Shown here piece after piece: positions 23,163-43,018 of a DNA stretch of 64,000 nt. The stretch is from positions 23,407 through 87,406 of IMG/VR virus record IMGVR_UViG_3300044839_000009; one strand, given 5' to 3'. The notes under the pieces were generated by a model, which saw only the letters and a list, made by a program, of their open reading frames with translations, did not search any database and was not told the DNA's origin. How positions within the stretch are numbered: the stretch's first letter is position 1; each line of letters starts with the position of its first letter. The DNA comes from a virus. A program made the translations under genes and the position numbers.

Positions 23163-23533
23163 CGCTGCTCCTTCCGTGGCCGACAGCAGTATTGCCGGTC
23201 GTCGCATTCGTCTACGGGGTGCCAGTCGCCCCGGCAGCCGCAGTCGCAGCCGCCCATCTTGCCTGCGGCCTTGAGCTTCCGCGCCTTCGCCATGAGGAGG
23301 TTTCCCGGGATCGGCCCGAGCGTCTTCTCCAGCTCGGTCTGGACGTCCCACCGCATCCGCCACGTGCCTGTCGGCCCGGCGCGCCGTACTGCGTCGAGGA
23401 ACGCTTCGTCGGGGATGTCTTTGCACTGCATGCGACGGCTGCCGACCATACGGATCGTGACGGGCGGCTCGGGCGGCATGACGGGCTGACGCGGCAGCCA
23501 GAGGGTGCCGACGCGGCGGAAGTCGAACGTCAT
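23159..23533 (-). CDS. hypothetical protein with Cys-rich C-terminus
   Basis: 124 aa; the ATG at 23533 overlaps the preceding stop (TGATG) and follows AGGAGA. The C-terminal third has CDCGCRGDW ... DECDDRQYCC, a probable metal site. N-terminal half has beta strands, then TGTWRMRWDVQTELEKTLG. No known family. Confidence 0.65.
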   Translation of the reverse strand: MTFDFRRVGTLWLPRQPVMPPEPPVTIRMVGSRRMQCKDIPDEAFLDAVRRAGPTGTWRMRWDVQTELEKTLGPIPGNLLMAKARKLKAAGKMGGCDCGCRGDWHPVDECDDRQYCCRPRKEQR

Positions 23534-34043: not shown

Positions 34044-34808
34044 ATGCCCGAGAACGAAGACGAGCAGAGAGGCCCGTGGGCCAAACACGAGCTGATCACC
34101 GCCTACCTGCGGTACGGCATCCTGACAGGCGAGTACCCGCCGGGAAGCAACCTGCCTCCCACCCGCATCCTGAAGGAGATGTTCAAGGCCGCCCCGCAGA
34201 CCATCCGCGAAGCGACCATGAAGCTCGCCGAGGAGAAGCTGGTCTACAGCAAGATGGGCAGCGGCATCGTGGTGCGCGATCACCGGCAGACCACGATGAC
34301 GCCCGCGGCCTACAAGGATCCGGCCGGACCCGGAGAGAAGTACCGGTGGATCGCCGAGGCGGAACGGCACGGCCGGGCAGGACGTTCTGACCTGCTCTTC
34401 GTCGGCGAGGTCACTCCGCCGGCCGACGTGCGCGCAGCCATGGGACTCGCCGAGGACGGCACGGCCATGGAGCGCCGCCAGGTGATGTACCTGGACGACG
34501 AGCCGTGCGAACTGGTCAAGTCGTACTACCCGATGGACCTTGCGCGCGACACGGCCATGGCCGTCAAGCGGAAGATCAAGGGCGGCACGCCTCGCCTGCT
34601 GGCCGACATGGGCTACCCGCCAGTGAAGTGCATCGACAAGGTGTCGGCGATCCAGCCGACTCCGGAGCAGTACGAGGCTCTTCAGATGCCTACGAAGCTT
34701 CCCGTGTTGCGCACCTTGCGGACGGTGTTGAGTGTCGACGACCGGATCATCGAGGTGTCAGAGATGGCGAAGGCTGGTCACCTGTACGAGATGCAGTACG
34801 AGTTCTAG
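34044..34808 (+). CDS. GntR/HutC-type regulator (wHTH + UTRA), KorSA-like
   Basis: 254 aa, ATG 2 bp after the previous stop. Residues ~12-80: winged helix (ITAYLRYGILTGEYPPGSNL, PQTIREATMKLAEEKLVYSK). Residues ~115-250: UTRA (LLFVGEVTPPADVRAAMGL, CELVKSYYPMDLA). In pSAM2 and similar elements such GntR proteins (KorSA) repress transfer genes. It is the best candidate for the repressor of P1 and P2. Confidence 0.88.
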   Translation: MPENEDEQRGPWAKHELITAYLRYGILTGEYPPGSNLPPTRILKEMFKAAPQTIREATMKLAEEKLVYSKMGSGIVVRDHRQTTMTPAAYKDPAGPGEKYRWIAEAERHGRAGRSDLLFVGEVTPPADVRAAMGLAEDGTAMERRQVMYLDDEPCELVKSYYPMDLARDTAMAVKRKIKGGTPRLLADMGYPPVKCIDKVSAIQPTPEQYEALQMPTKLPVLRTLRTVLSVDDRIIEVSEMAKAGHLYEMQYEF

Positions 34809-34953: not shown

Positions 34954-35601
34954 ATGACCACGCCTGCCGAGCGCCCGGTCGTCAGTTTGCGGACCGGCTA
35001 CATGCAGGAGCTGAACAAATCCCCATCCGCGCTCTACCGCCTCTACGACTCGGAAGACCGCCTGATGTACCTGGGCATCACCATGAATCCGAAGCGGAGA
35101 TTCCAGCAGCACGGGGCCGACAAGTTCTGGTGGCACCTGGTCGTCCGCCATGAGATCGAGTGGCACGCGAACCGGGTTCTGGCGGCAGAGGCCGAGCATG
35201 CGGCGATCCTCAGTGAAAAGCCCGTACATGACGCCTCGTACCGCTTCGCCACCGGCCTGAAGTACGCCTACGTCAACCCTCCGAGCGACCCGTATTGGCG
35301 ACCCCTCGCCCAGCTCATCTACCACGAGATCGAGGCAGGGATCTATCCGCCCGGCGAAGACCTCCCCCGACCGACCAAGATGGCGGCCAAGTACCGGGTC
35401 TCTCGCGCGTCGGTGGAAAGGGCCCTCAGTCGGTTGATCGAGTGCCGAATGGTGGAGAGTCGCCTTCCCGCGGGGTCGTGCCGGGTGTACACCGCCTGCC
35501 CTTCCCCTGATCGTCGCCCGGTCGAGTCCGTATGGGGGCCGACAATCGGCGAGGCGCGGGAGTTCCGTGAGCGCACCCGGCGCGCCGCCAGCTTTCGATA
35601 G
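34954..35601 (+). CDS. GIY-YIG domain fused to GntR-type winged helix
   Basis: 215 aa, ATG at 34954 after AAGGGA. Residues ~26-95: GIY-YIG-like domain (ALYRLY, LMYLGIT, RRF-QQH, Glu in AAEAEHAAIL). Residues ~113-182: GntR winged helix (WRPLAQLIYHEIEAGIYPPG, KYRVSRASVERALSRLI). No UTRA domain. It may be a site-specific nicking enzyme or a regulator with a degenerate nuclease fold. Placed under an operator shared with the transfer operon. Confidence 0.85.
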   Translation: MTTPAERPVVSLRTGYMQELNKSPSALYRLYDSEDRLMYLGITMNPKRRFQQHGADKFWWHLVVRHEIEWHANRVLAAEAEHAAILSEKPVHDASYRFATGLKYAYVNPPSDPYWRPLAQLIYHEIEAGIYPPGEDLPRPTKMAAKYRVSRASVERALSRLIECRMVESRLPAGSCRVYTACPSPDRRPVESVWGPTIGEAREFRERTRRAASFR

Positions 35602-41856: not shown

Positions 41857-42033
41857 TCAGTGGTCGCCGGGGCGTTCCGGGTGCACGGGGCAGGGGCCGA
41901 AGCCGAAGCCCTGGTCGGCGGGGTGGACGTGCGGCTCGCCGGACAGCGAGCAGGCGGTGCGCGGGTCCTCGTTGCAGTACTCGACGCAGGTGCAGTCGAG
42001 GATCTCGTCGAGGGCGGTGCGGCTGGTGGTCAT
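41857..42033 (-). CDS. 58-residue Cys/His-rich protein
   Basis: ATG at 42033 after GGGGAG. LDCTCVEYCNEDPRTACSLS and HVHPADQGFGFGPCPVHPER: many possible metal ligands. First gene of the minus-strand unit downstream of the 42071-42099 promoter. Confidence 0.6.
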   Translation of the reverse strand: MTTSRTALDEILDCTCVEYCNEDPRTACSLSGEPHVHPADQGFGFGPCPVHPERPGDH

Positions 42034-42070
42034 TGCGGGCTCCCCTGCGGTTCGACTTGGCGATGACCCC

Positions 42071-42138
42071 ACTCTAACCAAGCAGCTTGGACAACTCAAG
42101 CTGTACAACTGAACTTGCCCAAGATTCTTTGATAGAGT
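42071..42138. promoter_or_regulatory. divergent promoter/operator region with CAAG palindromes
   Basis: Minus strand: TTGAGT (42099-42094), 17 bp, TAGAGT (42076-42071). Plus strand: TAGAGT (42133-42138) with a weak -35. Between them lie the palindrome CAAGCAGCTTG and a wider CAAG-N13-CTTG repeat, probable operators shared by both directions. 42139-42202 is the leader of the plus gene. Confidence 0.6.
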
Positions 42139-42202
42139 CGATTCCAGGAGGACGCGGCCCACCCCATGGCCATGGCCAAGCCGCTTGTGCAAACATGTCT
42201 GT

Positions 42203-42484
42203 ATGACCGACTACAGCCCCAGCCCGCAGCTCACCGCCGCGCTCGCCGCCTTCGTGGAGACGCAGCGCGCGGAGGAAGCGGCCCGCCAGGAACTCCGGGC
42301 CGCAGTCGCCGCCGACCTCAAGAAGTTCGACATCACCAACGACGTCATCGCGGCCCATCTCCCATGGTCCGCCGAGACCGTCCGAGGCATCGCCCGCGAG
42401 TACGACGTGCCGCGCAAGCGCAAGCCCACCGTCAAGTCCATCAAGCCCAAGAAGCGCACCGCCGGAGGCACGCCCTCCGGCTGA
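42203..42484 (+). CDS. small HTH regulator
   Basis: 93 aa; start taken at ATG 42203. FVETQRAEEAARQELRAAVA, then helix-turn-helix FDITNDVIAAHLPWSAETVR, and a Lys/Arg-rich tail. No clear ribosome-binding site at this ATG, so the start is uncertain. Probably autoregulates the divergent region. Confidence 0.65.
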   Translation: MTDYSPSPQLTAALAAFVETQRAEEAARQELRAAVAADLKKFDITNDVIAAHLPWSAETVRGIAREYDVPRKRKPTVKSIKPKKRTAGGTPSG

Positions 42485-42499
42485 TCCCGGAGGCACCTC

Positions 42500-43018
42500 G
42501 TGTCGCGTTACGGCAAGACCCACCTCTACCGGTTGTTCAACGCCGAAGACCGACTGCTCTACGTCGGCATCTCCGGGTTCGCCCCTGTGCGCATTGATGC
42601 TCACCGACGCGGCGCCCCATGGGGATCGGACATCGCGCGGCGTGAAGTCGAGGAGTTCCCAACCCGTCGAGCGGCGGCCTTCGCTGAGTCTGAGGCGATC
42701 AACACCGAGTTCCCGCTGCACAACAAGCAGGGGCGCCGGGCCGAACCCAAGTCCGCCGCCATAGCGCGCGCCGAAGCCGCCTCTAGCGCCAAGAAGGCGG
42801 CCTGCCGAACTCTGCAACGTGACAAGCGAGCAGCCGATGCGGCCACAGCGCGCTTTGAGAAGTCGATCGCCGCCGCACGCCTCGACGGCCACTCCTTCCG
42901 CGAAATCGGCAAGTGGGCGAACGTCAACCACGAGCGCGCCCGCACCATCGCCATCCGCATCAACGGGGACTCCCGAACCCGCGCCGAACGCGAAGCCGAG
43001 GACGCTCCCGACGCCTGA
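42500..43018 (+). CDS. GIY-YIG domain fused to C-terminal HTH
   Basis: 172 aa, GTG at 42500 after GGAGG. Residues ~8-76: GIY-YIG-like (HLYRLF, LLYVGIS, VRIDAH, then AFAESEAINTE and PLHN). Residues ~80-127 are a charged helix, and ~128-155 an HTH (GHSFREIGKWANVNHERA). Same design as 34954-35601 with a different DNA-binding part. Nuclease or regulator. Confidence 0.8.
   Translation: MSRYGKTHLYRLFNAEDRLLYVGISGFAPVRIDAHRRGAPWGSDIARREVEEFPTRRAAAFAESEAINTEFPLHNKQGRRAEPKSAAIARAEAASSAKKAACRTLQRDKRAADAATARFEKSIAAARLDGHSFREIGKWANVNHERARTIAIRINGDSRTRAEREAEDAPDA

Follow-up and report, generated by a model that had tools for sequence, protein, structure and literature searches.

The window analysed here is a stretch of 64,000 nucleotides (positions 23,407 to 87,406) of the 87,406-base virus record IMGVR_UViG_3300044839_000009 in IMG/VR. 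The virus is a tailed phage that encodes a terminase, a portal protein, RecT, an HNH protein, and a C5 methylase. At positions 42500-43018, the window carries a gene, P0001, whose product joins a GIY-YIG nuclease domain to a helix-turn-helix (HTH) DNA-binding part. This open reading frame (ORF) starts with GTG behind a GGAGG ribosome site, and only 15 bases separate it from the upstream gene P0003 (42203-42484), so the two genes form one operon. The features of the locus, with the evidence for each in brackets, are the following:

41857-42033, minus strand: small divergent ORF of 59 amino acids (aa), on the far side of the control region (ORF list)
42034-42202, no strand: divergent control region, with TTGNNCAA at 42087, 42115, and 42185 (motif count, comparison with locus L106)
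42203-42484, plus strand: P0003, small HTH protein 'A' from the gene coupled upstream, presumed to be the regulator of the phage's own locus (position, homologue in L106)
42500-43018, plus strand: P0001, fusion of a GIY-YIG nuclease and an HTH, 172 aa (ORF, PHROG, AlphaFold, Foldseek)
42521-42727, plus strand: GIY-YIG domain of P0001, aa 8-76 (catalytic positions, AlphaFold, Foldseek)
42749-42883, plus strand: linker of P0001, one long helix, aa 84-128 (AlphaFold)
42806-42994, plus strand: exchangeable DNA-binding part 'B' of P0001, aa 103-165, with the HTH at aa 133-155 (sequence comparison, AlphaFold)

We found that P0001 matches PHROG endonuclease families 16880 and 3312 (E 8.6e-17 and 2.7e-16). 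The Pfam GIY-YIG profile PF01541 scored 17.5 bits, below its cut-off of 22.6, and reached up to 35.6 bits in other members of the family described below. The AlphaFold model, built from 60 sequences, has a predicted local distance difference test score (pLDDT) of 94.6 and shows the beta-beta-alpha-beta-alpha fold of the GIY-YIG superfamily, followed by a 45-residue helix and the HTH. When this model was compared with known structures using Foldseek, the top PDB matches were UvrC GIY-YIG domains, with a probability of 1.00, and a profile comparison also ranked the UvrC GIY-YIG domain top in PDB (E 8.5e-5). P0001 has every catalytic position (Y10, Y21, G23, R31, H35, E63, and N75). Tyr10, Tyr21, Gly23, Arg31, His35, and Glu63 are invariant in 164 of 164 family members, and Asn75 is present in 96% of the same members. 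The first motif reads (A/H)LYR, lacking the glycine of 'GIY' but retaining its tyrosine, and the catalytic residues that characterize the superfamily are in place. Judged from its sequence, the GIY-YIG domain of P0001 is very probably an active nuclease. The C-terminus is a small HTH that matches no Pfam family. A preliminary description of this DNA had proposed a second GIY-YIG/HTH fusion at this position; the gene is real, and fold, PHROG matches, and catalytic residues agree. PADLOC returned no match for either P0001 or P0003.

The DNA-binding part of P0001 (aa 103-165) is 61-70% identical to a stand-alone protein of 65-115 aa that 12 further elements of Streptomyces type encode (eight are viral contigs, and the other four are contigs of Streptomyces genomes), and is thus homologous to the regulator of another element. 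Exact 17-bp palindromes of the form YGTCTAN5TAGACR, two or three in number, precede the stand-alone gene in 12 of 12 elements and were found at none of the 194 other loci among the 206 compared. Allowing the form YGTCTAN5YAGACR, sites lie at about -107 and -62 from the start codon at all 12 stand-alone loci and at -40 in 11 of them, and in L003 at -109, -94, -63, and -40; a pattern with a spacing of 4 gave no match, and a spacing of 5 fits. Eight whole stand-alone records carry three to four sites each, all of them at the stand-alone gene and none elsewhere. We rejected the idea that the palindromes are a property of the divergent gene, as their presence tracks the regulator: loci L124, L024, and L121 encode a divergent gene 76, 52, and 37% identical to that of the stand-alone loci, together with a different A protein, and have no site. 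Since these loci keep the divergent neighbour without the site, the palindromes go with the regulator. From this co-conservation, we infer that the stand-alone regulator binds YGTCTAN5TAGACR. Some stand-alone proteins (L098/L105) are only 55-66% identical to the rest and still keep the operator, and the recognition helix is nearly invariant across P0001 and the stand-alone proteins. Because P0001 resembles the stand-alone proteins to the same degree as L098/L105 resemble the rest, and because its recognition helix is near-identical, it probably keeps the specificity of the stand-alone HTH and would recognize the same motif.

The window virus, in contrast to these elements, has no site of this motif with up to one mismatch in its 87 kb. 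An own site for the HTH of P0001 was therefore rejected to one mismatch, and sites with two mismatches occur at chance level. A stand-alone copy of this HTH was sought in the phage's own genome, and none was found. The other fused version of the HTH, in L101, likewise comes from a genome with no site at up to one mismatch; there, the nuclease (L101:3653-4498) carries the P0001-type HTH plus an XRE domain, and its coupled regulator is of the ribbon-helix-helix (RHH) type, with operators reading GTGTAGCTACAC. Two more families could be read, and both repeat the pattern of P0001. For the Phd-type, one GTGTACACTNNNGTAC lies at A in 6 of 6 genomes in which this type is the A protein and in 0 of 2 genomes in which it is part B of the nuclease; for the RHH-type, sites are present in 4 of 4 A genomes, and the single B genome has none. 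As a separate observation, CGTGAGAC(C/G)AT is conserved close to the start codon (within about 20 bases), at the place expected for a ribosome site, before the stand-alone HTH gene in L003, L004, L095-L100, and L102-L105, and before the A gene in L046.

The operon of P0001 appears to be under the control of a different operator. The divergent control region contains a palindrome element, I1, at 42071-42138. The motif TTGNNCAA has five copies in the whole window, three of them upstream of P0003, where at most 0.03 per region would be expected by chance, and a P0003 homologue in L106, 59% identical, is also preceded by three TTGNNCAA sites. The palindromes are thus best explained by TTGNNCAA as a conserved operator, distinct from the predicted target of P0001. 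The preliminary description had placed the fusion at a palindrome-rich divergent region; such a region exists, but it adjoins the upstream gene of the operon and lies about 300 bases from the nuclease start. L106 and the window share downstream genes, yet L106 has no nuclease gene behind its P0003 homologue. Therefore, the nuclease gene is an optional second gene of the regulator operon, and an allele without the gene exists, as it does for homing endonucleases.

A second member of the same family lies elsewhere in the window, behind a regulator gene of its own:

34044-34808, plus strand: P0004, GntR-UTRA regulator upstream of P0002, in place of its 'A' (Pfam, position)
34954-35601, plus strand: P0002, GIY-YIG domain with a GntR winged helix (Pfam, PHROG, comparison with P0001)

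P0002 matches the same PHROG endonuclease families (E 1.9e-20 and 2e-16), and the Pfam GIY-YIG profile scores 23.2 bits on it, above the cut-off. The N-termini of P0001 and P0002 share 39% identity over 71 aa (E 9e-11), whereas their C-termini, a small HTH and a GntR winged helix, are unrelated; on both points, the two genes are as the preliminary description had them. PADLOC gave three sub-significant matches for P0002 and none that was significant.

To place these two genes in a wider family, we combined three scans of viral contigs with plasmid and phage records and obtained 166 distinct fusion ORFs. Clustered by sequence, their 141 distinct C-terminal parts form 66 groups. Pfam (E<=0.01) assigned 51 families among 119 C-terminal parts, and those shown are nearly all DNA-binding. 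GntR (17), Phd/YefM (7), and HTH_17 (7) are accompanied by MarR, Crp-like, XRE, RHH, Sigma70_r4, YdaS, P22 Cro, MerR-like, zinc-ribbon, and other types, and by single cases of GntR plus UTRA, Arc-like, and YdaS-like parts. On a tree of the N-terminal domain from 96 members, 35 or more switches of C-terminal type are needed; the lowest possible number is 20, and shuffling the labels gives about 65. The count is rough, as the tree was built on about 70 columns. These data point to clear exchange of C-terminal parts in addition to inheritance. A modular family whose DNA-binding parts can be exchanged, as suggested earlier from two genes, is thereby strongly supported, including the joining of the GIY-YIG unit to several HTH types among homologues, and the survey excludes a single fixed architecture. 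By sequence, this is a widespread family in which one cutter is joined to dozens of regulator domains, and it appears to be hitherto undescribed: a literature search, with most subscription journals and all preprints outside its reach, returned no description of a GIY-YIG/regulator-domain family. Some members have unusual compositions. L068:3477-4409 and L117 join GIY-YIG to an entire GntR-UTRA-like repressor and could be nucleases controlled by a small molecule. L005:4983-5987 and L009:2983-3987 have two DNA-binding parts in tandem, the second homologous to a small protein encoded directly upstream, and L091:971-1813 joins GIY-YIG to a part that resembles, by eye, the arm and core-binding region of a phage integrase.

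In many family members, as in P0001, the nuclease gene follows one that encodes a small DNA-binding protein, A; the stop codon of the first gene often overlaps the start codon of the second. The A proteins match Phd/YefM, RHH/ParD-like families, several HTH families, and phage CII. When A proteins were compared with the C-terminal parts B of the nucleases, 190 homologous A-B pairs were found at E<1e-3, involving 43 A and 46 B, showing that A and B come from one pool. L130 and L136 have their A and B types mutually reversed (E 3e-11 and 3e-13); a weaker swap of this kind links L086 and L090 (E 4e-10 in one direction and 0.006 in the other). A strict rule that A and B of one operon always differ was rejected, as both members belong to the same operon in nine of the 190 pairs. 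New relative to the preliminary description are the regulator gene coupled to the nuclease, the pool common to regulators and nucleases, and the predicted targets in other phages. At L138:3049-3462 and L037 (minus strand), the upstream partner is a NUDIX hydrolase gene, with no DNA-binding protein there.

On balance, we favor the view that P0001 is an operator-directed, site-specific endonuclease aimed at rival phages or at alternative regulatory alleles. The domains, the catalytic residues, the exchange of DNA-binding parts, the common pool, the operator motif with its distribution, and the empty site are observed; cutting by P0001 and the outcome for a target phage we infer, and the operator-directed function is a well-supported prediction. 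The GIY-YIG domain would cut DNA, and the C-terminal HTH, derived from a regulator family of like phages, would bring P0001 to YGTCTAN5YAGACR before the stand-alone gene. The carrier phage would be spared by its different regulator, P0003, its different operator, TTGNNCAA, and its lack of target sites. If a phage bearing the other regulator allele resided in the same cell or superinfected it, the control region of that phage would be cut, and the phage would either be lost or take on the allele of the carrier. The family would re-aim through exchange of its DNA-binding part.

The closest known system is Odn of phage ICP1, a nuclease with a rival's DNA-binding domain that cuts the replication origin of a rival satellite (PMC8263062); further odn genes have been predicted (PMC10448857). 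Odn and P0001 have in common a nuclease of the GIY-YIG superfamily with a DNA-binding domain captured from a rival and, in P0001 by prediction, aimed at the rival's control DNA. However, Odn acts for a lytic phage against a satellite, belongs to the T5orf172 subfamily, and has an N-terminal RepA_N DNA-binding part and an origin as its target. In the family of P0001, in contrast, GIY-YIG is N-terminal, the DNA-binding domains are of dozens of regulator types, the genes are coupled to regulators, and the cut is predicted to fall in operators of other phages. The T5orf172 nuclease domain was not found in P0001, for which Pfam and PHROGs give PF01541 and phrog_16880/3312. By analogy, P0001 would work like Odn, and we do not class it as an Odn homologue. 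Free-standing and intron GIY-YIG homing endonucleases such as I-TevI and SegB share with P0001 the modular DNA-binding part and the optional presence of the gene at its locus, but the family described here uses DNA-binding parts of repressors and antitoxins, and its predicted targets are regulatory alleles. The GIY-YIG 'endonuclease' of Cheoctovirus mycobacteriophages (phrog_3312/phrog_16880) belongs to the same N-terminal family (45-46% identity), but its C-terminus, unlike that of P0001, has a zinc-binding-like pattern and no HTH. A survey of the GIY-YIG superfamily (Dunin-Horkawicz 2006, PMC1564403) recorded fusions to HTH, winged HTH, and NUMOD; its text makes no mention of GntR, antitoxins, or Streptomyces, and describes no pairing with regulators as seen here.

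Several results weigh against the operator-directed reading. Zero counts are the chance expectation for a motif of 12-17 bp in one genome; they exclude action at a canonical own site but do not prove selection for avoidance, and the window record may be incomplete. Automatic calling found a tightly placed upstream ORF in 80 of 164 members and a small partner in 54, which is only part of the family. Besides the 141 distinct C-terminal parts, there are 24 members with fewer than 40 residues after the GIY-YIG domain, and the C-terminal parts of some others belong to no known DNA-binding family. The nine related A-B pairs within one operon, counted at the level of broad families, exceed the 1.2 expected; the clearest are in L077, L005, and L009, and P0004 and P0002 are both GntR-type. 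Such relatedness fits local duplication as well as it fits capture from rivals, and some aiming parts, with P0004/P0002 among the related pairs, may be local duplicates.

A free-standing homing endonuclease would have the alternative allele as its target, and its main result would be gene conversion that spreads a cassette of A and nuclease, not the exclusion of rivals. The same divergent gene is found beside different A modules, with and without a nuclease, and both the empty site in L106 and the RecT carried by the phage fit such a cycle. In L046, part B is 61% identical to the A protein of L118, which has a homologous divergent gene beside it, and in L101, part B matches the L003/L095 regulator, and homologues of the L101 divergent gene are found at these two stand-alone loci (E 2e-3 and 1e-4). 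For L046 and L101, the predicted target thus adjoins a homologous divergent gene, the geometry of homing, which makes conversion of a rival allele a serious alternative or additional outcome. At the window locus, however, the divergent gene is not common to the stand-alone loci, leaving little homology for repair, and we regard homing as the main role of P0001 as unlikely, although worth keeping in view. It is more doubtful still that P0001 is a transcription regulator in which the HTH is the working part and the GIY-YIG domain has an accessory role or rarely cuts, similar to I-TevI, which can repress its own gene (PMC10448857). The C-termini are indeed regulator domains, with UTRA as well in L068 and L117, and A and B are related within some operons, but the six catalytic positions are invariant in 164 members and five fused cases have no B-type operator in their own genome.

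The operon could also be read as a pair resembling a toxin-antitoxin system, in which the nuclease would be harmful to the cell and would be neutralized by the product of the gene coupled upstream. The genes are coupled, and antitoxin DNA-binding types (Phd/YefM, ParD-like) are frequent among the A proteins; the nuclease itself, however, bears the same families, A has no obvious neutralizing extension, the A gene occurs without a nuclease in L106 and at the 12 stand-alone loci, and PADLOC matches neither P0001 nor P0003, all of which makes this reading quite improbable. We give the least credence to a nickase acting on its own genome in phage replication or recombination. Some members do lie beside divergent genes that resemble replication-type winged-helix proteins, and a replication protein gene adjoins the family member in Cheoctovirus, but the phage's own genome lacks the target motif and the gene is dispensable at its locus, as L106 indicates.

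For the family as a whole, we put forward, as a tentative proposal with not quite an even chance of being right, that temperate phages join the repressor- or antitoxin-type DNA-binding domains of their rivals to one GIY-YIG cutter and so destroy or overwrite rival regulatory alleles. If true, phage regulatory specificity would itself be the target of an arms race, giving a reason for the fast turnover of phage repressors and operators, and Odn, a single described trick, would become a system widespread among temperate and plasmid-like phages. The family would also offer a ready natural set of nuclease-aiming domain pairs, with targets readable from the promoter of the stand-alone homologue, and it would become directly testable how a temperate phage keeps out rivals whose regulator differs from its own.

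The gene order P0004-P0002 recurs in the Streptomyces plasmids L005, L006, L009, and L012. These are 'non-mobilizable' plasmids of 85-92 kb that retain the order of GntR-UTRA regulator, small gene, and GIY-YIG fusion, and some of them, also present as IMG/VR viral contigs, may be phage-plasmids.
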